A DNA stretch of 64,000 nt. Origin: Lineus longissimus (lineage: Eukaryota; Nemertea; Pilidiophora; Heteronemertea; Lineidae). The DNA lies in contig NC_088312.1 in assembly GCF_910592395.1 (NCBI RefSeq), positions 7,006,001 through 7,070,000 of the forward strand. Reading direction: 5' to 3'. The translations under genes were made by a program, and so were the position numbers. The notes below the pieces were generated by a model that worked only from the letters and a program-made list of their open reading frames with translations, was not told where the DNA came from and did not search any database. Positions 1 to 28,320 of the stretch are shown here, in pieces. Position 1 is the stretch's first letter, and every line of letters begins with the position of its first letter.

Positions 1-123
1 AATTCCTATTTCAACGTAGTCTCTGTGTTCACCTTTCCACACACACTATCAATATGATGCAACATAGCAGGCAGAATCCTCGCCAAACCCACGTATAATA
101 CACCTGTCTTCTATTCTTTGCAG

Positions 124-453
124 TTCTCATCTCCCCTCGTGTCAAGACTATCTCATGGCCACGTTATCCGTACATCTCACCCTGCTATAAAAGTCCCTTC
201 AGACCTCCAGATAGCTCGGCAGGCCCATCGTCTTGGTCTTGATCAAAAGATTGTGGCAAAATTCAGGGATAGTGATGAAGATAGTTGTCGGTATTGTAAG
301 AAATATTTTGGACCTTTCCGCAAGGCCAATCTGAAGAAGCACGAAAGAATACACACAGGAGAGAAACCATACGCATGCCACGTCTGCGGTCGTCAGTTCA
401 GTGATCCGTCGTCGAAAATCCGCCACATGCGTCTGCATAAAATTCCAAAATAA
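124..453 (+). CDS. E1: alternative terminal exon, 2 C2H2 fingers
   Basis: Acceptor CAG ends at 123; 109 residues to TAA. A 54-residue linker precedes fingers at about 55-77 and 85-105, joined by TGEKPYA. Finger 1 is odd: 14 residues instead of 12 separate its second Cys from its first His ([14 protein letters not shown]), so the helix numbering is uncertain. Finger 2 reads [16 protein letters not shown] follows at 576. First exon of the array inside the window; earlier ones may exist to the left. Confidence 0.85.
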
Positions 454-727
454 ACAGTCGTCTATGGCAAATGTGTTCTTTTTGTCAGTCCCAGTTGGTC
501 TTAAAAATTCATCTGTGTTTCATTCCTTCCATTTGACAGACTTGAATCTCTGAGTTCTTGTAAAGATCTTTGACCAATAAAGTAGGTTAGATATGAATTG
601 AAGTCTCAGTGTTTCTCTTTCCAAGGTCTACCCAAGTCAATTCCTGTAGATATTCAGCATAGTAACAACCCTGCATGGTCTCTGTAACAAAATTTATACA
701 ACTAGTCTTCGTCTTTTGTTCTTGCAG

Positions 728-1027
728 TCCCTACCTCAAATCCCTGCTTTCAAAAGGCACATGGGATTTCATGTGTGTCCCACATGTGACAGGCTGTGCA
801 GAACACGCAAAGCACTAGAAGAACACTACACTATGCACACTGGGGAAAAACCATTTAGATGCACATATTGTGGAAAGTGTTTCAGTCGGCGTGAATACTG
901 GGAGAAACATCAACGCGTTCATACTAAGGAAAAGCCTTATAGGTGTAGCTTCTGTGATCGGGCGTTCAGTGATAGGGCAGCATTATCGAGGCATCGGCGA
1001 ATTCATACAAGGGAAATGGGAAAATGA
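728..1027 (+). CDS. E2: alternative terminal exon, 3 C2H2 fingers
   Basis: Acceptor CAG ends at 727; 99 residues. Fingers at about 17-37, 45-65 and 73-93 with TGEKPF and TKEKPY linkers. Recognition segments are CRTRKALEEH, FSRREYWEKH and FSDRAALSRH. Finger 1 has Cys (CRTR) where the core Phe normally sits. The Trp at helix position 4 of finger 2 is unusual (Leu is normal). AATAAA at 1415 lies before the next exon. Confidence 0.85.
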   Translation, partial: SLPQIPAFKRHMGFHVCPTCDRLCRTRKALEEHYTMHTGEKPFRCTYCGKCFSRREYWEKHQRVHTKEKPYRCSFCDRAFSDRAALSRHRRIHTREMGK

Positions 1028-1525
1028 AAGAAAGTGGGGACCCCTGCAATGTGCTGCTGACATTTTTCAAGCGAGGACTTGGGTTGTTCCAGTTTGGAAA
1101 GTGCAATCTCGAAAAGATGCATCATGCAGTAATTTTGATAGTAGCAACAATCAGAAGGCCTTGTTTTGATCTTGCCTGATTGATCATGGATGTTGAGTTG
1201 GTATAGAGTCCCCAGGTTCATTTGACTGGTCATTATCTTGTGATTCGTTTGATAATATCTTATGATACCTTCTCTGATGATGTCAACCCTGATTTTCCAT
1301 CATTCAACTTCAGCATTTTTTCTTCAACAATATTTTGAAAAGCATTCGTTTGTCTATTGCAGCTAACATACGGTTGTCAATTTTCGAAGTGTATTCTCTT
1401 CTACACAGAACTGAAATAAAACTGGCCTATCTCTTCTTATTTCTTAAGTAGCTATGATCTCACGCTCTCACTCTCAGCTAACACAAATTTTCCAAAACTC
1501 AGCTGAAAACTTCTTACTTTTTCAG

Positions 1526-1801
1526 TTCCAGTTCAAAGTCGTGCTATCAGCGCCTAGTAAGAAGAGGAAACGTGATTGGAAAATAGGGAAATACGGCGAC
1601 TTCAATTGTGATATCTGCAATAAAAAGTTCCTTCGGCGGGATTCATATTCAAGACATATGAGATCACATAACAATGACCCATATGAATGTCCAGTTTGCT
1701 TGAAAAAGTTCAACGATCGTTCCAATTTCAAACGTCATTGTCGTTCTATGCACCCAAATCAAATCGGCGAGGATTACAGCCCCCTGAAAAGTTCAAAATG
1801 A
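1526..1801 (+). CDS. E3: alternative terminal exon, 2 C2H2 fingers
   Basis: Acceptor CAG ends at 1525; 91 residues. A basic patch KKRKR near residues 12-16 could serve nuclear import. Fingers at about 28-48 (FLRRDSYSRH) and 55-76 (FNDRSNFKRH, final pair spaced H-x4-H). The linker is NNDPYE, not the usual TGEKP, which may loosen the two-finger grip. The 1802-2082 gap is AT-rich without a canonical poly(A) signal that I can see. Confidence 0.85.
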   Translation, partial: FQFKVVLSAPSKKRKRDWKIGKYGDFNCDICNKKFLRRDSYSRHMRSHNNDPYECPVCLKKFNDRSNFKRHCRSMHPNQIGEDYSPLKSSK

Positions 1802-3412: not shown

Positions 3413-3811
3413 TCAAATGCTGCCAACTGGTCAGACATGTCACAGGCACTTGCACGGAATGGGAAATGTGCAGTATGTAAACAAATGTTCTGGAGTGAGT
3501 CAGCCCTTCGGAAACACGTCTTGGCAGAACATGCGGATGAACACCCTTATGATTGTCATATCTGTGGCAAAGGCTTCTATCGTAAAGATCACTATAAGAG
3601 TCATTTGCGAGTTCACACGAATGACAAGGCATACGAGTGTTTCGAGTGCAAGAAACAGTACAAAGACCCATGGTCCTTGCGGCGTCACAATCGTCAAAAA
3701 CATCAACCGGTAACTTGCAGTATCTGTAGCGATGTTTTCAGCAATAAGTTGGAGCTTGTTACTCATCTGAAAGATGCCCATGGTCATTTCAAGATCCCCA
3801 GTTCAGAGTAG
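3413..3811 (+). CDS. E6: alternative terminal exon, 4 C2H2 fingers
   Basis: Acceptor CAG ends at 3412; 132 residues, the most fingers of any exon here. Fingers at about 19-40 (FWSESALRKH), 48-68 (FYRKDHYKSH), 76-97 (YKDPWSLRRH) and 102-123 (FSNKLELVTH). Linkers ADEHPYD and TNDKAYE are non-canonical and finger 4 follows finger 3 almost directly, so fingers 3 and 4 may pack differently. The 700-base gap after it holds AATAAA at 4329 and no gene. Confidence 0.87.
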   Translation, partial: SNAANWSDMSQALARNGKCAVCKQMFWSESALRKHVLAEHADEHPYDCHICGKGFYRKDHYKSHLRVHTNDKAYECFECKKQYKDPWSLRRHNRQKHQPVTCSICSDVFSNKLELVTHLKDAHGHFKIPSSE

Positions 3812-4506: not shown

Positions 4507-4830
4507 TTTTTGGCATCTGGGCACATATCAACTGCAAGGAAAGTCATGGTAGACGGTCAACAGAGAGGGTGGCAGTGTAACTGGTGTGGAAAAGTCTTCC
4601 CGTCAAAACACAGCTATAATATTCACGCCAGGGTTCACACAGGAGAGAAGCCATTCCGGTGCAAGTTTTGTGACAAGGCGTTTTCCCAGAGTAACTCTCT
4701 TCAGCGACATATTCGAATCCACACTGGTGATAAACCTTATGTTTGTAAACAGTGTGGCAAAGCCTTCAGCGACCAGTCATCTTTCGTGCGACATTCGGTT
4801 GTCCATAAAAGAGCAGACCTTCTACAGTGA
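4507..4830 (+). CDS. E7: alternative terminal exon, 3 C2H2 fingers
   Basis: Acceptor TTGCAG ends at 4506; 107 residues. Fingers at about 24-44 (FPSKHSYNIH), 52-72 (FSQSNSLQRH) and 80-100 (FSDQSSFVRH), with canonical TGEKPF and TGDKPY linkers, so a continuous 9-bp reading block is likely. The open frame runs back to 4312, but that part lies upstream of the acceptor and has no finger sequence. Closest neighbour in sequence is E8. Confidence 0.88.
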   Translation, partial: FLASGHISTARKVMVDGQQRGWQCNWCGKVFPSKHSYNIHARVHTGEKPFRCKFCDKAFSQSNSLQRHIRIHTGDKPYVCKQCGKAFSDQSSFVRHSVVHKRADLLQ

Positions 4831-5186: not shown

Positions 5187-5513
5187 GATTCTTTCAGAGC
5201 TAGGAAACTCTCGGACTCACTAAAGTCCAAGGATGGAATAGTCATACCTGGATACGATGGCAAAAAATGGCAGTGCTCATGGTGTGGCAAAATATTCTTG
5301 CAACGCTTCTCAATGCTGATTCATGTCCGTATTCACACCGGTGAAAAACCGTACCATTGTCATCTTTGTCCAAAGGCTTTTGCCCAAGGTTGTGACTTGA
5401 AAAAGCATATTCGTATTCACACGGGAGAGAAACCTTACGCTTGCAAATACTGTGGCAAATTGTTCAGTGATTGCTCATACATGAAGAGGCACCTTCGGTC
5501 GCATGAACGATGA
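5187..5513 (+). CDS. E8: alternative terminal exon, 3 C2H2 fingers
   Basis: Acceptor TTTTTCAG ends at 5186; 108 residues. Fingers at about 30-50 (FLQRFSMLIH), 58-78 (FAQGCDLKKH) and 86-106 (FSDCSYMKRH), both linkers TGEKPY. Shares the KxWQCxWCGK entry into finger 1 with E7, which indicates a sister duplication. The 5514-5836 gap has a short internal repeat 'ataggtcaaggctgt' near 5620-5680 and nothing else. Confidence 0.88.
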   Translation, partial: DSFRARKLSDSLKSKDGIVIPGYDGKKWQCSWCGKIFLQRFSMLIHVRIHTGEKPYHCHLCPKAFAQGCDLKKHIRIHTGEKPYACKYCGKLFSDCSYMKRHLRSHER

Positions 5514-5836: not shown

Positions 5837-6076
5837 TTGTTCCGAGAGGTACTGAAGAGAAAGCCCTTCGTAATGAATGAATACGCTTGTCCGCACTGTG
5901 CCAAGGTGTTCTCGTGGAAGTCTCATTTGACTCGTCATCTTCTTGTTCACACCAATGTCAGGTCTTTTCAGTGCGAGCTATGCGAGAAGACTTTCAAGTT
6001 GCGCAATCATTTAGTAGACCATATAAGGGGTTGTGCAAAACTGAATGAGGAGCAACGAAGGGCGCGGAAGCAGTAA
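5837..6076 (+). CDS. E9: alternative terminal exon, 2 fingers (W-helix subfamily, second C2HC)
   Basis: Acceptor TTTTGCAG ends at 5836; 79 residues. Fingers at about 18-38 (FSWKSHLTRH) and 46-66 (FKLRNHLVDH, last ligand Cys). First member of the E9-E13 subfamily, in which finger 1 always has Trp at helix position -1 and Ser at 2. Basic C-terminus (RRARKQ). Linker TNVRSFQ. No AATAAA before E10 except the one at 6345. Confidence 0.87.
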   Translation: MFREVLKRKPFVMNEYACPHCAKVFSWKSHLTRHLLVHTNVRSFQCELCEKTFKLRNHLVDHIRGCAKLNEEQRRARKQ

Positions 6077-6390: not shown

Positions 6391-6684
6391 TTGGACAGGT
6401 TCGGTTTGCCGAGACACGTCTGTGGATTGAGCGCAACATCTAATAACCCGTCAAAGATTCTTTTCTGTCGGTACTGCGAGAAGGCATTTGCCTGGAGGTC
6501 TCATTTGAAGCGACATCTTTTGATCCATACTGGAAATAGGCAGTTCATTTGCAAAGAATGTGGTGCGACATTTAAACGGCGTGATCATTGGAAGGAGCAT
6601 GTTTCCAGACACCAAAAGGAGGGGGCCTCCGCTTTTGGTGGTCAGAACTTAACATTCATAGAGGACTTAAATGACACTTTATGA
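6391..6684 (+). CDS. E10: alternative terminal exon, 2 C2H2 fingers (W-helix subfamily)
   Basis: Acceptor TTTTCAG ends at 6390; 97 residues. Fingers at about 26-46 (FAWRSHLKRH) and 54-74 (FKRRDHWKEH), linker TGNRQFI. Finger 1 matches E9, E11, E12 and E13; finger 2 differs at contact positions. A 20-residue tail ends in acidic EDLNDTL. Confidence 0.88.
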   Translation: MDRFGLPRHVCGLSATSNNPSKILFCRYCEKAFAWRSHLKRHLLIHTGNRQFICKECGATFKRRDHWKEHVSRHQKEGASAFGGQNLTFIEDLNDTL

Positions 6685-6818: not shown

Positions 6819-7136
6819 TTCAGCTATCCTCCTGGTGTTGGTATGCGACCAGACACGGCACAACGACCCCCCAAACAGGCCGGAGAGTTCACCCCGCACT
6901 TCTGCCCTATTTGTCACAAGTCATTTCCATGGAAATCCTACTTGAAAAGACACTTGGCAACACACACTGAAGCTCGGCCACATATGTGTTTGAAGTGCAA
7001 CAAAGATTTTAAACGTTCTGATCAGTTGGCAGCACACATGATCCATGTTCATAATGAAGTATCTTGGCAGAGATATGGACCGTTCTCCGGGTTAAATAAC
7101 CAAAACATTGGCTCCGCTTCTGGCAAGATCCAGTAG
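6819..7136 (+). CDS. E11: alternative terminal exon, 2 C2H2 fingers (W-helix subfamily)
   Basis: The acceptor ATTTTCAG ends at 6818 and the phase-0 frame joins the ATG at 6843 without a break, so the exon begins FSYPPG; 105 residues. Fingers at about 29-49 (FPWKSYLKRH) and 57-78 (FKRSDQLAAH, H-x4-H), linker TEARPHM. About 27 further residues follow finger 2, without a recognisable motif. Confidence 0.87.
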   Translation, partial: FSYPPGVGMRPDTAQRPPKQAGEFTPHFCPICHKSFPWKSYLKRHLATHTEARPHMCLKCNKDFKRSDQLAAHMIHVHNEVSWQRYGPFSGLNNQNIGSASGKIQ

Positions 7137-7483: not shown

Positions 7484-7975
7484 TTTGGCATTTATCATAC
7501 AAGTTCTAGTCGTAGATTCATGGGCCAACCTTCTCCAAAATCGCCCATGAAAGTGCACACTTGCCACATCTGCCAAAAATCGTTCGCCTGGAAGTCTTTC
7601 CTGCGGCGCCATCTAGTCGTCCATCAGGATGAAAGGCCCTTTAGTTGTCAATTCTGCTCTCTGACATTCAAACGCCAGGATAAGCTTCAGTATCATTTGC
7701 ACGTACAACATGCAAAGTTTTCGAAGACATCGGATAGGGTCGAGTTGTCTGGGATTATGAAGGACCCGCGTAAACTTGTCGATTCCTCAGCATTCCGATC
7801 TGCAGGAATGGTAGATTTGGAATCTGTTCATCCCATGCCTGGAACAGATCAAGGGCCTTCACAATATGACCCAGGCTTAGAGGAGAATCCATCTCGTGAA
7901 ATAGACATGTGTTCAGAAGAAAATCAGAATCCCATGAAATTAGAGGACTTCAATGATGACCGTGATAAAATTTAG
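7484..7975 (+). CDS. E12: alternative terminal exon, 2 C2H2 fingers with a long acidic tail
   Basis: Acceptor TTTTTCAG ends at 7483; 163 residues, the longest exon. Fingers at about 27-47 (FAWKSFLRRH) and 55-76 (FKRQDKLQYH, H-x4-H), linker QDERPFS. The last 85 or so residues are finger-free and rich in Asp, Glu, Ser and Pro (for example LEENPSREIDMCSEEN and EDFNDDRD). Such a tail could act as a transcription effector surface, but that is inference. No other member of the E9-E13 group has it. Confidence 0.88.
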   Translation, partial: FGIYHTSSSRRFMGQPSPKSPMKVHTCHICQKSFAWKSFLRRHLVVHQDERPFSCQFCSLTFKRQDKLQYHLHVQHAKFSKTSDRVELSGIMKDPRKLVDSSAFRSAGMVDLESVHPMPGTDQGPSQYDPGLEENPSREIDMCSEENQNPMKLEDFNDDRDKI

Positions 7976-8119: not shown

Positions 8120-8344
8120 TTGTACCACCAGTCCTCAGCGTCAATGGTTCCACTCGCCCGAAAGCATAAATGCATCCACTGCAATAAACTCTTCCTTTGG
8201 AAGTCTTACCTCAAGCGGCACATGCTGATGCATACAGATTCGCGCAGCTTCACCTGTGATTTTTGCGGGGCAAAGTTCAAACACGTGCACCATTTGTCTC
8301 AACATAAAAGGGTTGCGCATGGTGTTTGGGCTCCGGTAACCTGA
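8120..8344 (+). CDS. E13: alternative terminal exon, 2 C2H2 fingers (W-helix subfamily)
   Basis: Acceptor TTCTTTCAG ends at 8119; 74 residues. Fingers at about 18-38 (FLWKSYLKRH) and 46-67 (FKHVHHLSQH, H-x4-H), linker TDSRSFT. Last of the E9-E13 run. AATAAA at 8738 follows, about 390 bases past the stop, inside an 800-base gap with no other gene. Confidence 0.88.
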   Translation: MYHQSSASMVPLARKHKCIHCNKLFLWKSYLKRHMLMHTDSRSFTCDFCGAKFKHVHHLSQHKRVAHGVWAPVT

Positions 8345-9147: not shown

Positions 9148-9492
9148 GCGTTTCCACCTTTGAACTGGCCGAGTTGGCGGCCAACAGACACATTGAAACG
9201 ACCCGGCCACTTCAACTATGACCAACACCTTTGTAGCGTGTGCAATTCGAGTTACAATTCTGCAGAGACACTGCAACTTCACATTCAGGCCTCTCATAGC
9301 ATTGCGGGCGTTGTTCACCCGTGTCCAATGTGTGAGAAAAACTTTGTCGAAGGTTGGCGTCTCCGGCGTCATATGAGGACCCACTCAACTGAGCGGCCAT
9401 TCAAATGTCAACTATGCGCAGCGACGTTTAAACGCAAAGATCATTTGCACGATCACAATAAGTTAAAACACTTTCATGGGAAAACAAACTAA
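9148..9492 (+). CDS. E14: alternative terminal exon, 3 C2H2 fingers
   Basis: Acceptor TTTTCCAG ends at 9147 (first residue Ala); 114 residues. Fingers at about 29-50 (YNSAETLQLH, H-x4-H), 59-79 (FVEGWRLRRH) and 87-108 (FKRKDHLHDH, H-x4-H). The first linker is two residues longer than usual (SIAGVVHP). Finger 3 shares FKRKDHL with E15, marking the E14-E15 pair, with E16 close by. Confidence 0.87.
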   Translation, partial: AFPPLNWPSWRPTDTLKRPGHFNYDQHLCSVCNSSYNSAETLQLHIQASHSIAGVVHPCPMCEKNFVEGWRLRRHMRTHSTERPFKCQLCAATFKRKDHLHDHNKLKHFHGKTN

Positions 9493-9986: not shown

Positions 9987-10325
9987 TCTGACTTTCATTG
10001 GTTTGGGTCAAGTCAAATCCCCACACCGAGTGGGTTTACAAGAAAACATACCAGTAGCACTACGTACCACTGTTCTCACTGTGGCAAGGATTACTCGAGA
10101 GATAGTGTGTTAAAGGCACACATACTTGCCAAGCACACCAGTATGGGGAACTATACGTGTTCCATTTGCAAGAAATCCTTCATTCAAAAGCATGATTTGT
10201 TGCGTCACATGACTGTCCACGGGTCCGACCGCCCATTTAAATGTGATTTCTGTGGCAAAACATTTAAACGTAAGGACCATCTGAGGGTGCACAGAGTGAG
10301 CCATTTAGCGGATCGACAGGCTTGA
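9987..10325 (+). CDS. E15: alternative terminal exon, 3 C2H2 fingers
   Basis: Acceptor TTTTTCAG ends at 9986; the phase-0 frame runs through before the first ATG at 10107, giving 112 residues and adding finger 1. Fingers at about 29-50 (YSRDSVLKAH, H-x4-H), 58-78 (FIQKHDLLRH) and 86-106 (FKRKDHLRVH). Linkers TSMGNYT and GSDRPFK. The 9493-9986 gap upstream shows no gene. Confidence 0.86.
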   Translation, partial: SDFHWFGSSQIPTPSGFTRKHTSSTTYHCSHCGKDYSRDSVLKAHILAKHTSMGNYTCSICKKSFIQKHDLLRHMTVHGSDRPFKCDFCGKTFKRKDHLRVHRVSHLADRQA

Positions 10326-10491: not shown

Positions 10492-10836
10492 ACAAAGTGG
10501 GGGGTTGACTTTAGTGGACAAGGTCAGATGCAAAACTTCCAACATGGTGCTGCCCTCAGGATTTTCCCGTGCGAGTTTTGCCCGAAGAAATTCAAATGGG
10601 CCTTGAGTCTTAAAGTGCACATGGCCACTCATACGAATAAGGGTGACTACAAGTGCGTGTACTGCCCGCGCGAGTTTGTTCAAATGTCGCACCTCAAACG
10701 GCACATGTATACACATGCAAAGGGTAAAAATGGGATGCTCTATTGCAAATCCTGTGACAAGAATTTCAACTACTTTAAAGAGTTGAAGACACATTTGCGC
10801 TGCTTAACATCGTCAAGTCACCAAGGTCTAAACTAA
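10492..10836 (+). CDS. E16: alternative terminal exon, 3 fingers (third C2HC)
   Basis: Acceptor ATTTTTCAG ends at 10491; 114 residues. Fingers at about 27-47 (FKWALSLKVH), 55-75 (FVQMSHLKRH) and 85-104 (FNYFKELKTH, final ligand Cys at H-x2-C spacing). The second linker is long (AKGKNGMLY). Two AATAAA sites follow at 10991 and 11036. Confidence 0.86.
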   Translation, partial: TKWGVDFSGQGQMQNFQHGAALRIFPCEFCPKKFKWALSLKVHMATHTNKGDYKCVYCPREFVQMSHLKRHMYTHAKGKNGMLYCKSCDKNFNYFKELKTHLRCLTSSSHQGLN

Positions 10837-12646: not shown

Positions 12647-13042
12647 TTTGCCCATCCCTGCTTGCAAGACGACTCGGGACAGCTGGGTGTCAGTCAAGGC
12701 CACGGTGTTGGAGGGAGGGGCAGGGCGAGTAGAGGCCACCAAGCGGTAAAGGGTGTTAATGTGTTGACCAGGGACCTCCGGGAGAGACTGGGACAGTCTA
12801 CGGGTCATTCACGTGGTTTCACGTGTCGTATCTGTGGCCGTGGTCTCTCAAGCGCGGCCAATCTCCATGTCCATCTTCGTGTGCACACAAAGAATGTTCG
12901 TTTTACGTGTTGCTTTTGCGGCGACAGGTTCAACCACAGTAACTCACTAAATCGGCATGTGAGACAGAAACACAATGTTGTGATGAAGCGTGGTGCCATC
13001 CAGGGACACATTGGGGTGGTGGATGAGGATAAGACAATGTAG
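12647..13042 (+). CDS. E17: alternative terminal exon, 2 C2H2 fingers with Gly/Arg-rich linker
   Basis: Acceptor TCTTACAG ends at 12646 and the frame is open from FAHPCLQDD; 131 residues. A 59-residue linker includes GVGGRGRASRG. Fingers at about 60-80 (LSSAANLHVH) and 88-109 (FNHSNSLNRH, H-x4-H), linker TKNVRFT. Finger 1 uses Leu in place of the core Phe. Sister of E18 (same LxxxANLxVHLRVH and FNHxNSLxRH). Confidence 0.87.
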   Translation, partial: FAHPCLQDDSGQLGVSQGHGVGGRGRASRGHQAVKGVNVLTRDLRERLGQSTGHSRGFTCRICGRGLSSAANLHVHLRVHTKNVRFTCCFCGDRFNHSNSLNRHVRQKHNVVMKRGAIQGHIGVVDEDKTM

Positions 13043-13590: not shown

Positions 13591-13869
13591 TTTGTTGAAC
13601 CAAGCTGGAGCTTGTGCAATCGTATCCCAAAGTCGAGAAATGTGCGTCCCCCTAGTCTTCTGAAGTCCACCCACCCTGATAAACTTAAGAGTTTGAAGTG
13701 TCATATCTGTGGGCGTGTCCTTTCAAAACTCGCCAATCTCAAGGTCCATCTACGTGTACATACCAGGGACGTTCATTTTCCTTGTCGTCAGTGCGGCAAG
13801 ATCTTCAATCACAGAAACTCTCTCAGCCGACATTTGAAAACTCATCACCAAGAGTGTACCATGCCATGA
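13591..13869 (+). CDS. E18: alternative terminal exon, 2 C2H2 fingers
   Basis: Acceptor TTTTTTTGCAG ends at 13590; 92 residues. Fingers at about 37-57 (LSKLANLKVH) and 65-86 (FNHRNSLSRH, then THH). Linker TRDVHFP. Finger 1 has Leu at the core Phe position as in E17. AATAAA at 13367 lies upstream and would serve E17. Confidence 0.87.
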   Translation, partial: FVEPSWSLCNRIPKSRNVRPPSLLKSTHPDKLKSLKCHICGRVLSKLANLKVHLRVHTRDVHFPCRQCGKIFNHRNSLSRHLKTHHQECTMP

Positions 13870-14165: not shown

Positions 14166-14516
14166 TTCGCGATGTCACCACCGCCCAATCCCGGCCAGCG
14201 TCATAATCAATCTCACCACCTTGGTCTCCCCATAAGCAAGTCTGCGTCGAGGTTTCCTTGTATGATATGCAACAAAAGTTTGAAGAGTAGCACGTCTTTG
14301 TCAAGTCATATGCTGATACATACGAAGGAAAAACCATTCAAATGTCCGTTCTGTGATCTCGCGTTCACTTTTCGCAACTCGCTATGGCGGCATAAAAAGT
14401 TACACACGGGCGAGAAACCGCACAAATGTGATTTTTGCGATCGGCGCTTCATCCAAGCTTCTGACGCCAAGAAACACATGATTGTTCATTTCAGTAGTCT
14501 GAACAAAACAAGTTAG
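14166..14516 (+). CDS. E19: alternative terminal exon, 3 C2H2 fingers
   Basis: Acceptor CACTTCAG ends at 14165; starts FAMSPPP, 116 residues. Fingers at about 32-52 (LKSSTSLSSH), 60-80 (FTFRNSLWRH) and 88-108 (FIQASDAKKH). Canonical linkers TKEKPFK and TGEKPHK. Ser-rich helix 1 is unusual for strong base contact. Only 129 bases separate its stop from the next exon. Confidence 0.88.
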   Translation, partial: FAMSPPPNPGQRHNQSHHLGLPISKSASRFPCMICNKSLKSSTSLSSHMLIHTKEKPFKCPFCDLAFTFRNSLWRHKKLHTGEKPHKCDFCDRRFIQASDAKKHMIVHFSSLNKTS

Positions 14517-14645: not shown

Positions 14646-14939
14646 AACATTGGACGTGTGAAAAATTCGACCCTGAGTGCATGCGGAGACACCCAGTGTG
14701 CAGTGTGTGGCATGGTCCTCTCGACTAGAAATTCTCTCAAAGCCCACTTGATGCGTCACACTGGCGAACGGCCGCGGGAGTGTTCAGTGTGTCACATGAC
14801 CTTCAAGTACGCGAATTCATTGCGGCGACACATGTTCATTCACTCCGGAGAACATCCTTACGCTTGCGAGAATTGTGGGAAGAAATTCGTCCAGCTCAGT
14901 ACATTGAAATTGCATCTCTTCACTTGTAAAAATAGATAA
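14646..14939 (+). CDS. E20: alternative terminal exon, 3 fingers (third C2HC)
   Basis: Acceptor ATCTTGCAG ends at 14645; 97 residues. Fingers at about 18-38 (LSTRNSLKAH), 46-66 (FKYANSLRRH) and 74-94 (FVQLSTLKLH, final Cys). Linkers TGERPRE and SGEHPYA. The 129-base spacing to E19 leaves little room for a separate 3' UTR and intron, so E19 and E20 might share a downstream poly(A) site. Confidence 0.87.
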   Translation, partial: NIGRVKNSTLSACGDTQCAVCGMVLSTRNSLKAHLMRHTGERPRECSVCHMTFKYANSLRRHMFIHSGEHPYACENCGKKFVQLSTLKLHLFTCKNR

Positions 14940-15405: not shown

Positions 15406-15720
15406 TTGGAGGGCCCCTTGCCGCAAGTGGTTGGTTCGATGTCAATAGAACGGGCAAAGTGGCATGAATGCGACATCTGTCAGAAGGTTCTGGCAAGTGC
15501 CAACGGACTACTGGTTCACAAACGCAAACACACTGGAGAAAGACCATATAAATGCCCATCTTGCAAAATGTCGTTTGCTTATTATACCTCATGTAGATAC
15601 CACACGAAGATCTGCCGTACTAAAGACTGGGGGTACAGGTGTAGGGGCTGTGGTCTAAGGTTTACAAATAACGATGACTTATTAAAGCACTCATACAAAT
15701 GTTCTGAATATAAGACTTGA
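15406..15720 (+). CDS. E21: alternative terminal exon, 3 fingers (last two C2HC)
   Basis: Acceptor TCTTTGCAG ends at 15405; 104 residues. Fingers at about 22-42 (LASANGLLVH), 50-70 (FAYYTSCRYH, final Cys) and 79-99 (FTNNDDLLKH, final Cys). The second linker, RTKDWGYR, is unusual and is a signature of the E21-E24 family. This is the only member of that family with an undamaged frame. Confidence 0.85.
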   Translation: MEGPLPQVVGSMSIERAKWHECDICQKVLASANGLLVHKRKHTGERPYKCPSCKMSFAYYTSCRYHTKICRTKDWGYRCRGCGLRFTNNDDLLKHSYKCSEYKT

Positions 15721-15729: not shown

Positions 15730-16131
<402 letters not shown>

Positions 16132-16311: not shown

Positions 16312-16595
16312 TTTCATGTAGCGTATCCCATTCCAAGGGACGTATTCCCCACAGCTACATGCAAGATCTGTGGATTGACCCTTGGGACCAGGATGGCGTT
16401 ACGTCACCACATGCAAAGACACAGCGGTGAACAACCTCACAAATGTTCAAACGGTTTTCATACCAGTCCTCCTTGTGGCGCCACCTTAAGTTACACACTG
16501 GAGAGAAGCCTCATGCTTGCACAGTCTGTGGCAAACGCTTTATCCAGTCATGTGATCAGAAAAAACACATGCTTACCCATCTTATGCTGAAGTGA
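16312..16595 (+). pseudogene. E23: zinc-finger exon with deletion and frameshift
   Basis: Acceptor TTATTTCAG ends at 16311. Finger 1 (about residues 17-37, LGTRMALRHH) is intact. Finger 2 starts KCS at about residue 44, then loses its second Cys. From about 16,470 the coding sense moves to another frame, where SLWRHLKLH, the linker HTGEKPHA and a full third finger (FIQSCDQKKH) continue to a stop at 16593-16595. The literal frame ends at 16588-16590 with no second finger. Confidence 0.72.
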
Positions 16596-16978
16596 CAGAA
16601 TTATGTTGGTCTGCAAAAAATGTGGAGAAAAAACTCCCGATCATGACCTTCTTGTGCAAGGAAACGAGGCAAAGAGCAGGCCTGATGGACAGTAATAGTA
16701 CGACTTTTGAAATTATGGAGTGTCATTTTGACCTTTAACAGAAAGATATTGATTGACTGATGATGTGTTTGTGGTGATGGTCTTCCTCATCTTGCATGTT
16801 TTTGGTGTTTGAAGGTTTTGTCAAGGAGTATTCTGGAACTTTCTGTCATCAGGACTCTCCCATTTTTCTCTCCTTGATGGTTTATCAATTGACCATTTGT
16901 TGTCTTTAGATTCTGAAATGTTCTTCTCTTGCCTGGCTTAAAACTTTGACACTAAGTTGCCTCCCTTACTTGTTCAAG

Positions 16979-17218
16979 TGGCCTGTAACGTATAGGCAAG
17001 CTTTCCAACCACCTTCCGTAATGTGTAAGACGTGTGGATTGTCCGTTTCCACGACAATGGTGCTACGTATCCACATGTGCCGCCACACCGGCAAAAAAAC
17101 GCACAAATGTAAAAAATGTGACAAGACATTTTCGCGTTTTTCACTTGGTCTTCTCTTCATTTCATTGTCTGGAGAGTGCGTTGCAGGAGGATATAAATCC
17201 TCATTTAAGACGATTTGA
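16979..17218 (+). pseudogene. E24: degenerate zinc-finger exon with one whole finger
   Basis: The upstream tract 'cctcccttact' matches E23, but the acceptor reads TTCAAG instead of TTTCAG. 79 residues: finger 1 at about 16-36 (VSTTMVLRIH), finger 2 begins at C44 and dissolves after FSRF. In another frame near 17,190-17,260 a faint WGTGFSC..MAEH echo of the family's third finger persists. The 17,219-17,517 stretch shows nothing further. Confidence 0.65.
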
Positions 17219-17517: not shown

Positions 17518-17829
17518 AGCCATAAACTGAGGTTAAAGGAAAGGTCACAGCAACCACAGAGAAACGACTCGGTCGTTGATTGTCAGATATGTGGAGTGCA
17601 ATGGGCGTCAGAGGAAATATTAAAGAAACACATTTTGACTCATCGGACACGACGATCGATCAGATGCAATATTTGCGGCCAGACGTTTACGCAGACGTGG
17701 TCGTTGCGACGACACAAATTGATTCACACTGGAGAGAAGCCATTTTCTTGTCGGGTTTGCGGCAAGGGCTTCCGCCAGTCCTCGGATCTGAGGAGGCATT
17801 CACGGGTCCACTTTAAGGATGCAGATTAA
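17518..17829 (+). CDS. E25: alternative terminal exon, 3 C2H2 fingers
   Basis: Acceptor TTGTTCCAG ends at 17517; 103 residues. Fingers at about 22-42 (WASEEILKKH), 50-70 (FTQTWSLRRH) and 78-98 (FRQSSDLRRH). The first linker, RTRRSIR, is strongly basic; the second is TGEKPFS. Finger 1 has Trp for the core Phe. The stop is followed by a 151-base gap to E26. Confidence 0.87.
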   Translation, partial: SHKLRLKERSQQPQRNDSVVDCQICGVQWASEEILKKHILTHRTRRSIRCNICGQTFTQTWSLRRHKLIHTGEKPFSCRVCGKGFRQSSDLRRHSRVHFKDAD

Positions 17830-17980: not shown

Positions 17981-18232
17981 TATCCAGAGCTAGATGCACG
18001 TAGTTTTCTTGGATCGAAACAGGCCGAGACACCATACCAGTGTGAGGTGTGTAATTTTTACCTGACATCTAAAAATAGCCTCGTCAATCACCTTAGAAGA
18101 CACACTGGTGAACGACCTTTTAAATGTCGGTTCTGTGACAAGGCATTTCCACGGACATTCTCGTTGAAACGACACGTAGTGTCAAAGCATACCTCTGTCA
18201 GTTCAAGACACTCGGACGATTACCCTCACTGA
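17981..18232 (+). CDS. E26: alternative terminal exon, 2 C2H2 fingers
   Basis: Acceptor TGTTTTTCAG ends at 17980; 83 residues. Fingers at about 21-41 (LTSKNSLVNH) and 49-70 (FPRTFSLKRH, H-x4-H), linker TGERPFK. The C-terminal tail is Ser/His-rich (SVSSRHSDD). AATAAA at 18871 could end this unit. Confidence 0.87.
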   Translation, partial: YPELDARSFLGSKQAETPYQCEVCNFYLTSKNSLVNHLRRHTGERPFKCRFCDKAFPRTFSLKRHVVSKHTSVSSRHSDDYPH

Positions 18233-18978: not shown

Positions 18979-19269
18979 TTGGAGCAACGGCGACGATCAA
19001 ACCAACAGGGGCGGTTCGGCTGTCCAGTTTGCTTTATCACACTTTGGACCCACCAGGATCTGGTACGGCACATGAGACGCCATACGGGGGAAAAACCATA
19101 TCCTTGTCCCCACTGTGGCAAGAAATTTGCACGGAACTTCTCAATGTTGCGGCACAAAAAAATTCATAGGCTCGATGAAACGCATCGTTGCCGTTTGTGT
19201 GGCTTTGAAAGTCACTCGCCAGAAGAACTGAAGGAGCACTTCAAATTGAAACATCAGTACACTTTGTGA
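18979..19269 (+). CDS. E27: alternative terminal exon, 3 C2H2 fingers
   Basis: Acceptor GTCTTACAG ends at 18978; 96 residues. Basic start LEQRRRSNQQG. Fingers at about 15-35 (LWTHQDLVRH), 43-63 (FARNFSMLRH) and 71-92 (ESHSPEELKEH, acidic helix, H-x4-H). Linkers TGEKPYP and RLDETHR. The acidic third finger looks less suited to DNA contact and may bind protein. Only 64 bases separate its stop from E28. Confidence 0.86.
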   Translation: MEQRRRSNQQGRFGCPVCFITLWTHQDLVRHMRRHTGEKPYPCPHCGKKFARNFSMLRHKKIHRLDETHRCRLCGFESHSPEELKEHFKLKHQYTL

Positions 19270-19333: not shown

Positions 19334-19651
19334 ATCTACCCACCAAGCCAACCAACGCGGCTGCATGAACCTTCAGTGCCAGGTTCGCTCATAGCGTGCG
19401 AAGTTTGCTCCAAATGTTTCACAACGAAGCGGGATATTCGACGTCATATGCGTCGCCACACAGGCGAGCAGCCGTACATGTGTTCCTATTGCGCACGGAG
19501 ATTTTCCTGTTCGAATTCGTTGACTAGACACACCAGAATTCATACCGGTGAACGACCGCATTCTTGTCCGATATGTAATCGCGGTTTCATTACAGCGTCG
19601 TCGTTCAAGAATCACATGATGTCGAAACATCACAAGGAACTTTCTAGATGA
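19334..19651 (+). CDS. E28: alternative terminal exon, 3 C2H2 fingers
   Basis: Acceptor TCTTCCAG ends at 19333; phase-0 frame begins IYPPSQPTRL, 105 residues. Fingers at about 22-42 (FTTKRDIRRH), 50-70 (FSCSNSLTRH) and 78-99 (FITASSFKNH, H-x4-H). Linkers TGEQPYM and TGERPHS. The shortest inter-exon gap in the array (64 bases) lies upstream, so E27 cannot have a long private 3' UTR. Confidence 0.86.
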   Translation: MYPPSQPTRLHEPSVPGSLIACEVCSKCFTTKRDIRRHMRRHTGEQPYMCSYCARRFSCSNSLTRHTRIHTGERPHSCPICNRGFITASSFKNHMMSKHHKELSR

Positions 19652-20005: not shown

Positions 20006-20299
20006 TTGAGACCTGGCAAATTGAGGTTTGAGCCAAGACGACAACCGTACCTACCCTCAACAAGCCAGCAACGTGGCTCGTACTGTTATCCTTGTAAAAA
20101 ATGTGGGATGACGCTCTCTTCGGGTTGGAACCTCAAACGCCATATGTTGACACATTCAGGGGAGCGACCCTTTAAGTGTCGATTGTGTGATAAACGGTTC
20201 AGTCAGAGTAATACATTGTATAGACATATGATGGCGAGTCATGGAGATGTTAAAAGATCAAGTTCTAAAAAGAGGATGGTGACACATCCTGACATTTGA
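20006..20299 (+). CDS. E29: alternative terminal exon, 2 C2H2 fingers
   Basis: Acceptor GTTTTCCAG ends at 20005; 97 residues. Fingers at about 30-50 (LSSGWNLKRH) and 58-79 (FSQSNTLYRH, H-x4-H), linker SGERPFK. Basic tail KRSSSKKRM. The upstream intron carries a degraded copy of the 13,106 MITE-like element at about 19,831-19,940. Confidence 0.87.
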   Translation: MRPGKLRFEPRRQPYLPSTSQQRGSYCYPCKKCGMTLSSGWNLKRHMLTHSGERPFKCRLCDKRFSQSNTLYRHMMASHGDVKRSSSKKRMVTHPDI

Positions 20300-20527: not shown

Positions 20528-20860
20528 TCCTACACAAGGGGTCGAGCTTCATCCCTTCTGCTCATGAAATCAACAGAAAGCTGCGTCTCGTTCTACCGAT
20601 GTCCAACGTGCGGTATTGGCTTTGGTTCTAGCAGTTCATTACGGGTTCACATCCGCTCACACACCAAGGAGAGACCATTCCAGTGTCGGCAGTGCTCAAT
20701 GGGCTTCACCAGTTGTTCAAACCTTTACCGTCATGTCAAACTTCACATTGGGGAACGACCTCATAAGTGTCGCTTCTGTGGCATGGGATTTATACAGACT
20801 GGGAATATGAAACTACATATACGTCAGAAACACGCTGACATGCTTAAAGAGGGGGAATGA
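20528..20860 (+). CDS. E30: alternative terminal exon, 3 C2H2 fingers
   Basis: Acceptor CATTTACAG ends at 20527; 110 residues. Fingers at about 25-45 (FGSSSSLRVH), 53-73 (FTSCSNLYRH) and 81-102 (FIQTGNMKLH, H-x4-H). Linkers TKERPFQ and IGERPHK. Shares the FIQ(T/S)GN(M/L) third finger and HIRQKH/HLRQKH ending with E31, marking them as sisters. Confidence 0.88.
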   Translation, partial: SYTRGRASSLLLMKSTESCVSFYRCPTCGIGFGSSSSLRVHIRSHTKERPFQCRQCSMGFTSCSNLYRHVKLHIGERPHKCRFCGMGFIQTGNMKLHIRQKHADMLKEGE

Positions 20861-21110: not shown

Positions 21111-21518
21111 TTCCATGTCAAAACGGACACTTCAGCCTTTGAGAGGAAAATCCCGGCATCTGGCCTCACGCCCACCAAGTTTCAGTGCATGATCTGTGAA
21201 GCCTTCTTCTCGGCCCGGAGTTCAATGGTCGTACATATTCGAAAACACACCAAAGAAAAACCATATGCGTGTCGTCACTGCTCCAGGGCTTTTACGAATC
21301 GTTCAAGTCTCGCACGCCATGAGAAGACGCACTCGGGAGTCAGACCACACGGTTGTCACATCTGTGACAAACGCTTCATCCAGTCTGGGAACCTGCGCTT
21401 GCATCTGCGTCAGAAGCACCCAGAGCTGTTCGAGCTACAGCCTTCGGAATCTCTTACTGACAGCATATACATGGAGGAACCGCAGTCAGATGAAAGACAC
21501 TCAGACTGTGATGATTAA
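21111..21518 (+). CDS. E31: alternative terminal exon, 3 C2H2 fingers with acidic tail
   Basis: Acceptor ATCTTACAG ends at 21110; 135 residues. Fingers at about 26-46 (FSARSSMVVH), 54-74 (FTNRSSLARH) and 82-103 (FIQSGNLRLH, H-x4-H). Linkers TKEKPYA and SGVRPHG. A 32-residue tail is acidic and ends DERHSDCDD. The 21,519-21,952 gap shows no gene. Confidence 0.88.
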   Translation, partial: FHVKTDTSAFERKIPASGLTPTKFQCMICEAFFSARSSMVVHIRKHTKEKPYACRHCSRAFTNRSSLARHEKTHSGVRPHGCHICDKRFIQSGNLRLHLRQKHPELFELQPSESLTDSIYMEEPQSDERHSDCDD

Positions 21519-21952: not shown

Positions 21953-22297
21953 ACTCTTGGCCTGGGCAGATCCCAAGTGTTGTGTCATTCGGCTGGTATT
22001 CGGCATTCCTTGTCTGGTCTGAAACATGGGTTTGGTCAGAGACTTGGTAACCCCGGGATTTTCTCCTCACCCCACGTCCACTTTAGTGAGAAGCAACACA
22101 AGTGTCCAGTGTGTTCCATGGCATTCTCTCGCAACTTTTCTCTCCAGAGGCATTTACGTATTCACACAGGAGAGAAACCGTACTCGTGTCATATCTGCCA
22201 GAAGACGTTCCGTCAGGGCCAACATCTTGTTAGACACCTGAGACAGATTCACAACAAACTGGGAACGGAAGCTAAAAACCTTGAGCAATCATTCTGA
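21953..22297 (+). CDS. E32: alternative terminal exon, 2 C2H2 fingers with long linker
   Basis: Acceptor ATATTTTTCAG ends at 21952; phase 0 begins TLGLGRSQ, 114 residues. A 50-residue linker rich in His, Gly and Ser precedes fingers at about 51-71 (FSRNFSLQRH) and 79-100 (FRQGQHLVRH, H-x4-H), linker TGEKPYS. A different open frame at 21,607-22,050 overlaps the linker and is not used. Confidence 0.86.
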   Translation, partial: TLGLGRSQVLCHSAGIRHSLSGLKHGFGQRLGNPGIFSSPHVHFSEKQHKCPVCSMAFSRNFSLQRHLRIHTGEKPYSCHICQKTFRQGQHLVRHLRQIHNKLGTEAKNLEQSF

Positions 22298-22467
22298 AGG
22301 ATCGAACCACAGACGTGTTTTACCATGAGTGTACATCGTACTTTGTATCATGATTGAGGAAAAGTTAATAGTTGTTGTAGACATTTGAGATTCAGAAAAA
22401 GTGTGTTCACTACCCGTTCAGTCTTCATTTTGGCCTTGGTACTAATTCCTTGACATTTGTTTTGCAG

Positions 22468-22764
22468 TCTATTGGATTGGCCAAACAGCAGGAGAGCAGG
22501 GGACAATTCAGGTGTCATATCTGTGGGGTATACCTTGTGGCAAAGCAAGGGTTAGAGAGACATATGAGGCGGCACACAGGAGAGAAGCCATACGAATGCC
22601 TAGTTTGCAAACGCGCATTCCCACACGGCAATTCCTTGTCAAGGCACTTGAAGCTCCATACTGGTGAAAGGCCATTCAAGTGCTCTCAGTGTGGCAAAGC
22701 GTTTATAGAATCTGGTGCGCTGAGGAAGCATGCTTTTGAGAAACACAGGCATAGCTTGAATTGA
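22468..22764 (+). CDS. E33: alternative terminal exon, 3 C2H2 fingers
   Basis: Acceptor TTTTGCAG ends at 22467; 98 residues. Fingers at about 16-36 (LVAKQGLERH), 44-64 (FPHGNSLSRH) and 72-93 (FIESGALRKH, H-x4-H). Linkers TGEKPYE and TGERPFK. First of the E33-E38 family, which shares finger layout and the CxxCG..L..K finger 1. Confidence 0.88.
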   Translation, partial: SIGLAKQQESRGQFRCHICGVYLVAKQGLERHMRRHTGEKPYECLVCKRAFPHGNSLSRHLKLHTGERPFKCSQCGKAFIESGALRKHAFEKHRHSLN

Positions 22765-23009: not shown

Positions 23010-23318
23010 TACTACCAGAATCGTACCCCAGCCTCCCCATGGCCTCTTGTGCTATTCCCGTGTCAAGTCTGCGGCATGAAATTCACCCGGAAACAAGTCC
23101 TCCACAGGCACTGGCGGACTCACACCGGAGAGAAGCCATACCGGTGTTCTCAATGTGGCAAGGCTTTCTCACAGAAAAACTCCCTTCAGCGACACATTCG
23201 TATCCACACCGGAGAAAGACCATTCAAGTGCAAATACTGTTCCAAGGATTTCATTCAGTCTAGTCACTTGAAATACCACATGGTTGAGCACCATAGGGCC
23301 TTGGCAGGGAAGGAATAA
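23010..23318 (+). CDS. E34: alternative terminal exon, 3 C2H2 fingers
   Basis: Acceptor ATCTTGCAG ends at 23009; 102 residues. Fingers at about 18-38 (FTRKQVLHRH), 46-66 (FSQKNSLQRH) and 74-95 (FIQSSHLKYH). Linkers TGEKPYR and TGERPFK are canonical, giving a likely continuous 9-bp reader. The 680-base gap after it shows no other gene and no relic that I can recognise. Confidence 0.88.
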   Translation, partial: YYQNRTPASPWPLVLFPCQVCGMKFTRKQVLHRHWRTHTGEKPYRCSQCGKAFSQKNSLQRHIRIHTGERPFKCKYCSKDFIQSSHLKYHMVEHHRALAGKE

Positions 23319-23997: not shown

Positions 23998-24309
23998 CCA
24001 AAGTCAAAGTGTTCAGCAGCCTTGCAGTGGTCCATGACAAAAGACGGAAAGTTCAATTGTTCAACCTGCGGAGCGTTTCTGAAAACTAAGCTTGCGATGC
24101 GACAACACTTGATGAGGCACACCGGTGAAAAACCTTATAAATGTGCTCACTGTAACCAGGCGTTCATCCAGAAGCAGGCCCTGAACCGACATGTTCGAAC
24201 TCACACGGGCGAGAGGCCTTATCAGTGTCAGATATGTCGGAAAGGATTCATTCAGTCGAGTGATCTGCGGTATCATACGATACAGCATCATATGGGAGCC
24301 AGTCACTAG
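23998..24309 (+). CDS. E35: alternative terminal exon, 3 C2H2 fingers; its 3' end seeds an 82-bp tandem array
   Basis: Acceptor ATTTTGCAG ends at 23997; 103 residues. Fingers at about 21-41 ([10 protein letters not shown]), 49-69 ([10 protein letters not shown]) and 77-98 ([11 protein letters not shown]-x4-H). Linkers TGEKPYK and TGERPYQ. The last dozen codons, with MGASH and the TAG at 24307, form the start of the first of 13 tandem 82-bp units that follow. Confidence 0.88.
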
Positions 24310-25703: not shown

Positions 25704-26021
25704 AACTTGCCCATTCCAGAAAAGCCTTTACAAAAATCACAACAAATGAAAGGAGCCCTCCGGTGTTCGATCTGTGGTGTCGGCCTGTCTTCCAAGACTT
25801 GCCTCTCTCGTCACATGAGGGTCCACACAGGAGAGAAACCATTCCAGTGTCCGCAGTGCAGCAAGGCTTTCTCACAGAATAACTCCCTCCGTAGGCACAT
25901 TTGTATCCATACTGGAGAAAGACCATACAAGTGCAAATACTGTTCAAAGGGTTTTGTTCAGTCGAGTGATTTGAGGTATCACATGTTTGAGCATCATGGA
26001 GGCATTGAAGAAAAAGAATAG
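25704..26021 (+). CDS. E36: alternative terminal exon, 3 C2H2 fingers
   Basis: Acceptor ATCTTACAG ends at 25703; phase 0 begins NLPIPEK, 105 residues. Fingers at about 21-41 (LSSKTCLSRH), 49-69 (FSQNNSLRRH) and 77-98 ([10 protein letters not shown]). Linkers TGEKPFQ and TGERPYK. Finger spacing is identical to E35 and E37. Near 26,066-26,099 the last codons (around EHHGGIEEKE) recur once in degenerate form. Confidence 0.88.
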   Translation, partial: NLPIPEKPLQKSQQMKGALRCSICGVGLSSKTCLSRHMRVHTGEKPFQCPQCSKAFSQNNSLRRHICIHTGERPYKCKYCSKGFVQSSDLRYHMFEHHGGIEEKE

Positions 26022-26509
26022 GCTCAGAGACATTGTTTTCGATAGCTGTCAAATTCTTCATTGTTTCTTGAGCATCACAGAGGCATCAAAGAAAAAGTGA
26101 TATTAATATGAAAAGTACTGTTTGGAACTCTTCTGGGTTTGAGGTTGCTGCGTCAGTTTCACATGGCTGAAGGCATGCTCTGCGTTACAGTTCCTTTCTC
26201 CTACAGGCAAGACATTTTGGGAGGGTTTTATCCCCTACAGTTGGAAAAATCTATGGTTCAGCTCTCTGTAGAACTTCGAATTTTCAAAATCAGACAAAGA
26301 ACAACTATTTCAGAGACATATTTTGCAAGTGAGGGCGCTGCCATGGACATCATTTTCTCATGAATTTTTTTTCAGTGTTTTGCTCTTGCCACTGTCACAT
26401 CCCAGCTTTATACTACACATTTAGTTAGAAATTTGTATCCGCATTATCTTTGCTGTTAAGATTATTCATGACGTGCATAAATCCTAAATATTTCTGTTTA
26501 TGCTTACAG

Positions 26510-26815
26510 AAATTTCAATATCGACGAAGGCCAAGTCAAAAATCCGGCCCAGCGAAGGGAGCTTTCAAGTGCATGATCTGTGGTGCCTGTCTGGCAGCTA
26601 AGAATTGCCTCGCTCGTCACATGCGGAGACACACAGGAGAAAAACCTTTTAAGTGTCTCGTGTGTGGCCGGCGGTTCCCTCACAACAGCTCCTTACTCCG
26701 ACACATGCGTATACATACAGGAGAGCGACCGTATAAGTGCACACAGTGTGGTAAAGGCTTCATACAGTCTAGTGACTTGAAGTATCATTTGGCAGATCAA
26801 CATCGCAAGTTTTGA
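26510..26815 (+). CDS. E37: alternative terminal exon, 3 C2H2 fingers
   Basis: Acceptor TGCTTACAG ends at 26509 (first residues KFQYRRR); 101 residues. Fingers at about 21-41 ([10 protein letters not shown]), 49-69 ([10 protein letters not shown]) and 77-98 ([10 protein letters not shown]). Linkers TGEKPFK and TGERPYK. Finger 1 and linker closely match E36, finger 2 resembles E33, which hints at mixing between family members by gene conversion or unequal exchange. Confidence 0.88.
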
Positions 26816-27255
26816 GGATATAGCGACTATACTACAGCTTCGAGAGTCGAATGTCAGCCCCCCAGGTGCATTTGGTCCTTCACATTGGTCTAATACCTCC
26901 TGGGCCTTGTCATGCCCATGGTGCAGTAGGCAATGCAGTTGTTTCGGATGGAGTTGTGCTATTTTCGATGTGGTATTTTGAAGTTGTGTCATCATTGGCT
27001 TTTCTGATTTGGATCAGTAATGGTATATGGTATAGTGTATTCAACCATGGCTGTATAGTCAATCATATATTTGTTTGAAGACTTAGGTTGGTGTTTATCA
27101 TCATTTTCTTTCTTAGAGAGCAGGTTCTAAACACCAATCGTTGGTACATTTTGTCTGCAGGGAATTCCTATGGATATCAGTGCAAAACCAAATCAACATC
27201 AGTTAATAAAAGGGCTTTAACAAGTGAATTTATAAGATTGTTCTATATCTTCCAG

Positions 27256-27471
27256 ACTTTGTTATCCTCAGGCAAGTTACCCTACGGCTCCTGGCTAAGA
27301 ACATGCCCGATCTGCGGCGATCAACTTCGAAGCAAACACGGCCTCGAGCAGCACATGACGAGACATACAGGGTCAAGGCCGTTTAAATGTCCACTCTGTC
27401 CAGAGACATTTACACGGAAGTTCACGTTGAATCGACACGCACATGTTCATACTCGGGAAAGACCTTATTAA
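27256..27471 (+). CDS. E38: last zinc-finger exon, truncated after 2 fingers
   Basis: Acceptor ATCTTCCAG ends at 27255; 71 residues. Fingers at about 17-37 (LRSKHGLEQH) and 45-65 (FTRKFTLNRH), linker TGSRPFK, then TRERPY and TAA at 27469. Beyond the stop the frame still shows a decayed third finger: Cys, then TGA where the second Cys belongs, then FIQNSDLRYH. So the exon lost its third finger through two nonsense changes. The two whole fingers may still be used. Confidence 0.75.
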   Translation, partial: TLLSSGKLPYGSWLRTCPICGDQLRSKHGLEQHMTRHTGSRPFKCPLCPETFTRKFTLNRHAHVHTRERPY

Positions 27472-28320
27472 TGCTTGATATGAGCACAAGCATTTATACA
27501 GAATAGTGATTTGAGGTACCACGTCCTGGAACAGCAGAAACGACTACAGTCTTGCCCTAATCCATGTCAAACGTTACAAAGCAACAGGGTTGGGACTGAT
27601 GCATTGGGTCTTTCAAAAGTCACAATGATACCAGCAGATGCCTGGCTTTCTGAAGCTCAGATATCACTGGACCACATTATTGTTCAGAAATGTATTTACC
27701 TTTGGCTGTCAGAGTTTAGTTGGTATGAAATTTTAGCAGTTGTCTATGGTAATTTTTTTTCAGGAAGAATCTTTCAAGTTCCACATCGCACTTCAGTGAC
27801 AGTCACGCGACCCGGTAGCCCAGCCACCTCATAGTCTGATTTTGTTACACTACAGTAATAGACTAGGTAAATGCATGTGTTCATTACTGTACAGCAATGG
27901 ACTAGGTAAAATGCAATTTGTCATTACATGTACTGTACAGTAATGGACAAGGTAAATGCCAGTGTTCATTACTGTACTTGATTGCACTGTTATGAATGAC
28001 CAATGTGTTTCATAGAGTTGTTGGCTATTCATGATTGTTCGATTGTTGATTCGTGAAAGTCTGTTTTTCTTTCATCCACGCTGTTCTTGATTCATATAAA
28101 GAGGGACATTTTATATGACACTGTATTCGAGTCTACGCGAAAGCATCATAAAGTGATGATTATTCCCTGTAATTGTAATGTACATATAAATTTGATTTGT
28201 CAAGTACAATGTATGCCTCATAATCAGATTTATGTCTCATATTATGCTGTATGTGTTGTATTCTGTGCTGTAAATATTATTACCAATAAAGGCGTTTGGA
28301 AATTTACTCATAAATAAACA
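27472..28320 (+). other. Tail of the array: E38 remnant, short tandem repeat and poly(A) signals
   Basis: After the decayed third finger (to about 27,540) there is no recognisable protein. Near 27,848-27,985 a motif of about 50 bases containing 'tactgtacag.aatgga' recurs three times. AATAAA at 28285 and again at 28313 makes this a good candidate for the end of the whole locus. Confidence 0.6.
28285..28318 (+). terminator. AATAAA pair at the end of the zinc-finger array
   Basis: Hexamers at 28285-28290 and 28313-28318 with a 'gtgtttgtttctg' stretch about 30 bases beyond. Confidence 0.6.

Follow-up and report, generated by a model that had tools for sequence, protein, structure and literature searches.

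A stretch of 64,000 nucleotides from chromosome 5 (C5) of the ribbon worm Lineus longissimus (C5:7006001-7070000; hereafter the window, whose base 1 is C5:7006001) harbors a long array of zinc-finger exons, which appear to be the alternative 3' ends of a single gene, named gene D here (NCBI LOC135487574). A six-frame scan for zinc fingers revealed 38 units on the plus strand between positions 58 and 27471, spanning 124-27471 from acceptor to stop, while the minus strand of the window displayed three isolated irregular finger matches only. Each unit consists of a pyrimidine-rich acceptor, a short open frame with one to four regular C2H2 fingers, and a stop. The 38 same-strand zinc-finger exons listed in a preliminary description of this DNA were thereby recovered, four of them broken and 34 intact, and its figure of about 94 fingers comes close to the present count, with 92 regular fingers in the main frames and another 3 in the second halves of two of the broken units. 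The same description had guessed at a probably non-insect animal, which holds for this nemertean. Examination of an additional 200 kb of C5 beyond the left edge of the window revealed that the array begins 3 kb to its left and comprises 43 units in total (C5:7002943-7033471), 37 of them intact. The five further units (C5:7002943-7006098, plus strand; window coordinates -3057 to 98), the last of which spans the window edge, include two without a usable acceptor. A tblastn search into the gaps of the window array, using 66 units (those of gene D and of two adjoining arrays belonging to genes A and C, described below), resulted in no missed units. An AATAAA at positions 28285-28290 on the plus strand, read from the sequence, is possibly the final poly(A) signal of the locus.

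All units of the window array lie on the plus strand. Two fingers each were found in units 25 (1478-1801, with alternative acceptors possible at 1526 and 1532), 26 (2083-2295), 27 (2756-2995), 31 (5837-6076), 33 (6819-7136), 35 (8120-8344), 38 (10492-10836, two regular fingers), 39 (12647-13042), 40 (13591-13869), 50 (17981-18232), 53 (20006-20299), and 57 (21953-22297). Three fingers are encoded by units 24 (728-1027), 29 (4507-4830), 30 (5187-5513), 37 (9987-10325), 41 (14166-14516), 42 (14646-14939), 43 (15406-15720), 49 (17518-17829), 51 (18979-19269), 52 (19334-19651), 55 (20528-20860), 56 (21111-21518), 58 (22468-22764), 59 (23010-23318), 60 (23998-24309), 61 (25704-26021), and 62 (26510-26815), and four by unit 28 (3413-3811). 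The ends of NCBI isoforms are formed by units 23 (124-453; X9, P0017), 32 (6391-6684; X19, P0015), 34 (7484-7975; X1, P0019), and 36 (9148-9492; X5, P0018). The broken units are 44 (15817-16131, in-frame TGA at 15964), 46 (16312-16595, frameshift), 48 (16910-17218, degraded, with a weak acceptor), and 63 (27256-27471, with a stop at 27469 ahead of its third finger).

The constant part of gene D is located to the left of the window, at a distance of 7.8-9.4 kb, and consists of two plus-strand exons, namely exon 1 with the coiled coil (coding part C5:6996604-6997278) and exon 2 with a linker (C5:6997614-6998228). Their donors, TCA/GTAAGT and AAG/GTAGGG, are both in phase 0, as had been expected of an exon upstream of the array. 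Together they encode 430 residues, which comprise a long coiled coil and then a linker for which disorder is predicted over most of its length. An AlphaFold2 model of the gene D protein P0015 showed helices at residues 13-76 and 78-220 with mostly high local confidence, and residues 222-448 as mostly disordered, followed by two fingers. An alignment of 23 NCBI models gives a consensus in which the coiled coil contains LTKAWSDLFSFITKYQAEL.VKEN and the linker contains VIEIPDSPPTLDLS and GPVP.SGPIP...DGK; the motif VIEIPDSPPTLDLS presumably resembles a SUMO-interacting or corepressor motif and is regarded as putative. Comparison of the coiled coil with solved structures resulted in three weak matches to viral spike chains (E values of 0.0077-0.0098), which we take as generic coiled-coil similarity.

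Two candidate arrangements of the upstream region were rejected. The preliminary description had placed a BTB domain upstream of the array; neither gene A's constant part nor the coiled coil encoded by gene C nor the gene D model P0015 gave a BTB match, and the BTB matches on C5 (115 candidates scored) lie only near 0.31 Mb, 6.7 Mb from the locus. The domain searches, together with the coiled-coil and disordered model of P0015, ruled out a BTB-encoding upstream exon, and a coiled coil with a mostly disordered linker was found instead. Further, all 60 plus-strand finger units of the region had been considered as one gene. Since a genome search with the coiled-coil exon of gene A revealed a second coiled-coil exon inside this run (C5:6996655-6997215), which interrupts it, the run was split into two genes, namely gene A with 17 units and gene D with 43.

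When the constant part of gene D served as query in a protein search, 69 proteins were obtained. Of these, 68 are L. longissimus models from NCBI (67 located on chromosome 5 and one on chromosome 11, with 191 member sequences according to the tool), and one is a metagenome protein; our protein searches for relatives reach proteins sharing exact words, and wider relatives are possible. At the gene D locus, NCBI L. longissimus proteins match at 100%. Five of them, P0015-P0019 (isoforms X19, X13, X9, X5, and X1, representing five clusters with 12 member sequences, of which the five representatives were compared), are identical for 430 residues up to the motif GDGK. Past this point, they continue into units 32, 21, 23, 36, and 34, respectively, with a single unit per model and junctions coinciding with the predicted acceptors; four of these ends (units 32, 23, 36, and 34) fall inside the window. 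NCBI models numbered with an X are automatic predictions, and the label X19 suggests at least 19 named isoforms of gene D. The shared 430 residues followed by different units support the earlier proposal of one transcription factor with mutually exclusive 3' ends. Isoforms of gene D are already present in the automatic NCBI annotation under scattered names, which differ even within this one gene (spalt-like, Krueppel-like, ZNF853-like, MECOM-like, and others) and mask a single family.

Splice signals were scored with weights of our own over the 66 units of genes A, C, and D, which remained after three of 69 rows had been set aside, one as spurious and two as the second halves of broken units. 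The best in-frame acceptor is in phase 0 in 62 of the 66 units, in phase 1 in two, and in phase 2 in two, with median scores of 6.2, -3.7, and -2.0 for phases 0, 1, and 2, respectively. Within the window, phase 0 applies to 37 of 38 units, which agrees with the acceptor, phase-0 frame, and stop previously noted for each of them. Donor-like sites were counted in 60 intact units, excluding six judged broken or without an acceptor; the same six were set aside wherever intact units entered the sequence, k-mer, and methionine comparisons below. Sites scoring at least 3 bits are present in 8 of the 60, compared with 16.6 expected. Raising the threshold to 5 bits leaves one unit (5.1 expected), and 6 bits, which is too strict in view of the donors of gene D itself, leaves none. 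Donors within units are rarer than chance and therefore fit terminal exons. The test is a blunt one, because the two constant donors of gene D themselves score just 1.2 and 5.3 bits with the same weights. The former statement that the units lack donors thus stands as a scarcity and has to be given up as a strict absence.

The units look old as judged from sequence comparison. Neighboring units share 38% identity on average, compared with 33% for units at least 12 places apart. Synonymous sites are saturated in 11 of the 14 nearest pairs of units; the remaining three pairs display ratios of nonsynonymous to synonymous substitution (dN/dS) of 0.21-0.25, which points to constraint. A comparison of contact residues based on the finger code covered 59 units that have a canonical finger and revealed 58 different sets, so that different DNA targets of the individual ends are likely.

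Genome searches covered the assembly of 391,118,348 bases in 30 contigs, with C5 comprising 23.93 Mb. The coiled-coil exon of gene A resulted in 45 matches, 44 on C5, where they form 15 clusters, and one on chromosome 11 (C11). Exon 2 of gene D gave 26 matches, all 26 located 139-825 bases downstream of a same-strand coiled-coil exon. With a single finger unit as query, 206 matches were obtained (150 of 1677 candidates scored). Their positions were counted for 106 rows, namely all 69 listed on C5 and C11 (13 within this locus) and 37 on other chromosomes, leaving out the remaining listed rows of other chromosomes and the unlisted matches among the 206. All 56 listed C5 and C11 hits outside the locus lie at most 60 kb downstream of a same-strand coiled-coil exon, compared with 4 of 56 after flipping the strands and a mean of 2.4 of 54 for random places on C5. 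They belong to 20 coiled-coil exons; adding genes A, C, and D, at least 23 of the 45 are followed by finger units. The median open frame of these hits is 124.5 amino acids, in contrast to 451 amino acids for the 37 hits counted on other chromosomes, which have the appearance of conventional polyfinger genes.

Some ends in the family are of helix-turn-helix types. P0026 ends in an HTH_Tnp_Tc5 domain, with CENP-B_N slightly below its cut-off, and the 16 genome matches of HTH_psq include two behind coiled-coil exons (one in gene B, the other about 2 kb past the coiled-coil exon at C5:6737122) and 14 elsewhere. Further relatives were found in 13 JGI metagenome proteins (P0001-P0004, P0006-P0013, and P0061) and one ENA protein; the family protein counts leave out P0061. 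A literature search, conducted mostly outside full texts, retrieved no publication on this family or on alternative finger ends in nemerteans.

Three members of the family adjoin gene D on its left. Genes A and D are arranged in tandem, both with phase-0 donors. Gene A harbors 17 finger units (C5:6979383-6994387, plus strand) and, as its first end, a basic, arginine-rich non-finger frame without a Pfam match (C5:6978804-6979217, plus strand). By eye, P0073, which derives from another gene of the family, displays a basic stretch resembling this end. Gene B (C5:6970859-6973286, minus strand) has a coiled coil followed by an HTH_psq exon, the single end seen. Gene C (C5:6955663-6960454, minus strand), 46-50 kb left of the window, combines a coiled coil with six finger units, and three NCBI clusters with seven member sequences use three of these six minus-strand units. 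Two small leftover pieces resembling a third finger lie behind its unit 67. The array described earlier as one locus is real; that description was an understatement with regard to the 17-unit neighboring gene, the six-unit gene on the opposite strand, and the roughly 45 related coiled-coil exons. Between genes C and B, a plus-strand gene at C5:6964225-6968661 is, by eye, what we take to be a methylthiotransferase similar to MiaB/CDK5RAP1. At C5:6945333-6948066, an 87-residue frame is repeated three times with a spacing of 1235 bases, forming a long tandem repeat.

The rest of the window contains other genes. Adjoining the array on its right, CUB and low-density lipoprotein (LDL)-receptor class A domains were detected at 31994-33400 (plus strand), followed by two similar glucose-methanol-choline (GMC) oxidoreductase genes facing apart (about 35480-40778 on the minus strand and 43302-48456 on the plus strand) and a leucine-rich-repeat protein in a single frame of 410 amino acids (49461-50693, plus strand). 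A short element that has inverted ends and by eye resembles a small transposon is present twice, at about 28740-28870 and 31480-31610. Rfam and transfer RNA scans of the window resulted in no matches.

Based on the anatomy of the locus, its frames, the family, and the isoform models with one constant part and one end each, gene D is very probably a gene in which a coiled-coil constant part is spliced to one of about 40 alternative finger-bearing last exons, and a member of a family of about 45 such coiled-coil exons. The window would then cover most of the 3' half of gene D, with the constant exons upstream ending in phase-0 donors. In a single precursor messenger RNA, the donor of exon 2 would be joined to one of about 40 competing acceptors. 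The coiled coil may mediate dimerization, and the result would be a single adaptor half combined with a large choice of DNA-binding tails, each end directed to its own DNA targets.

Several observations weigh against this interpretation. Isoform support consists of automatic NCBI predictions, as indicated by their X labels, instead of reads, and the distinct ends of gene D seen as sequences number five; no NCBI isoform was found for gene A despite its 17 units. The structure model of P0015 is weak overall, with a predicted TM-score (pTM) of 0.30. Finger arrays are demonstrated for only part of the 45 coiled-coil matches, the weakest of which (E values up to 5.7e-4) may be fragments. At the score of the first donor of gene D, donor-like sites occur in 27 of the 60 intact units (35.4 expected). 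AATAAA or ATTAAA precedes the next acceptor in 30 of the 66 units compared with 20.3 by shuffling, a weak enrichment, and since canonical signals follow just these 30, a separate poly(A) site for each unit is at most putative. Finally, a search for k-mers shared between the regions preceding 37 units and the intron that follows exon 2, which is a weak test, gave nothing clearly beyond shuffles and no shared selector or docking sequence.

Four other explanations were weighed. If the units were separate small zinc-finger genes in a cluster, each would have its own promoter and start codon, and an in-frame methionine is indeed present between acceptor and first finger in 28 of the 60 intact units. 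The other 32 lack it, so that the own start typical of KRAB-type genes is missing there, nearly every unit has a phase-0 acceptor, and five different units are attached to the constant part in the NCBI models, all of which makes separate genes very improbable. Serial joining of the exons into one long polyfinger protein would agree with the linkers between fingers within units, which are of the usual polyfinger type, and with the donor-like sites that do exist in some units. Against this, every unit ends with a stop in its own frame, donors within units are below chance at 3 bits or more, the long frames of the hits on other chromosomes contrast with the short ones on C5 and C11, and all five models of gene D contain a single unit apiece; serial joining is therefore next to excluded.

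The transcripts might also arise partly by joining in trans, as described for lola and mod(mdg4) of Drosophila (PMC11426971, PMC1947980), or the constant part of gene A might share the ends of gene D, for which the tandem arrangement of the two genes and their phase-0 donors would be suitable. Joining in trans is not required, however, as the constant exons belonging to each array precede it on the same strand, and no gene A model was found in the protein searches; we thus regard both joining in trans and such sharing as quite unlikely. The last explanation concerns function, namely a genome-defense repertoire like that of the vertebrate KRAB-finger genes rather than a developmental code. The expansion in this worm, the many fingers, some broken units, and some helix-turn-helix ends of transposase-related types speak for it, whereas the units look old and constrained, judging by the identity of neighbors and the dN/dS values of the three measurable pairs, and no recent burst is visible within the gene D array. 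A genome-defense role therefore appears doubtful, and splicing of one constant part to alternative ends in cis is retained as the preferred interpretation of gene D.

Genes with a comparable organization are known from insects. In fruitless, Broad-complex, and tramtrack, which are BTB genes with fewer ends, alternative finger ends are placed on a shared front half. Dscam1 carries a large store of mutually exclusive internal receptor exons with docking and selector pairing. Gene D shares with Dscam1 the large store of mutually exclusive exons within one gene and differs from it in that the exons are terminal and belong to a likely DNA-binding protein; with regard to selector pairing, the weak k-mer search gave nothing clearly beyond shuffles. 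For lola of Drosophila, 20 isoforms are described, 17 of them with different C2H2 ends (PMC11426971), arising by cis and trans splicing (PMC1947980), while mod(mdg4) has at least 30 alternative ends, mostly FLYWCH, which are trans-spliced onto a BTB constant part (PMC11426971). The TTK-type BTB domain of both genes is reported as not found outside arthropods (PMC11426971). As in lola, the automatic NCBI models of gene D combine a constant N-terminal part with one of many C-terminal ends; the difference lies in the coiled coil in place of the TTK-type BTB domain, in the 43 units (37 intact) of gene D, and in the trans joining known for lola. With mod(mdg4), gene D has in common the constant part with many alternative ends, but its ends are C2H2 fingers on the same strand downstream of their own constant exons instead of trans-spliced FLYWCH ends. 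Zinc-finger or otherwise predicted DNA-binding ends, as in both insect genes, were found here in the form of C2H2 fingers, with helix-turn-helix types elsewhere in the family.

Because the test for a BTB domain failed, gene D is not a member of the TTK-BTB genes represented by lola and mod(mdg4), and since its constant part is unrelated to theirs, the nemertean family appears to have an origin apart from that of the comparable insect genes. It is conceivable, though we put this forward only tentatively, that it forms a separately evolved, chromosome-scale nemertean system of combinatorial transcription factors. The products of about 45 coiled-coil genes, all but a few encoded on one chromosome and the largest gene offering some 40 DNA-binding ends, would then pair within and between genes, and the set of ends present in a cell would yield a very large number of paired DNA specificities serving as a cell-identity code. 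The design of lola and mod(mdg4) thus appears to recur in a ribbon worm on an unrelated N-terminal domain and with more ends in one gene. This would provide a natural test case for two questions, namely why animals make transcription factors whose tails can be exchanged, and how a single donor selects among forty acceptors.

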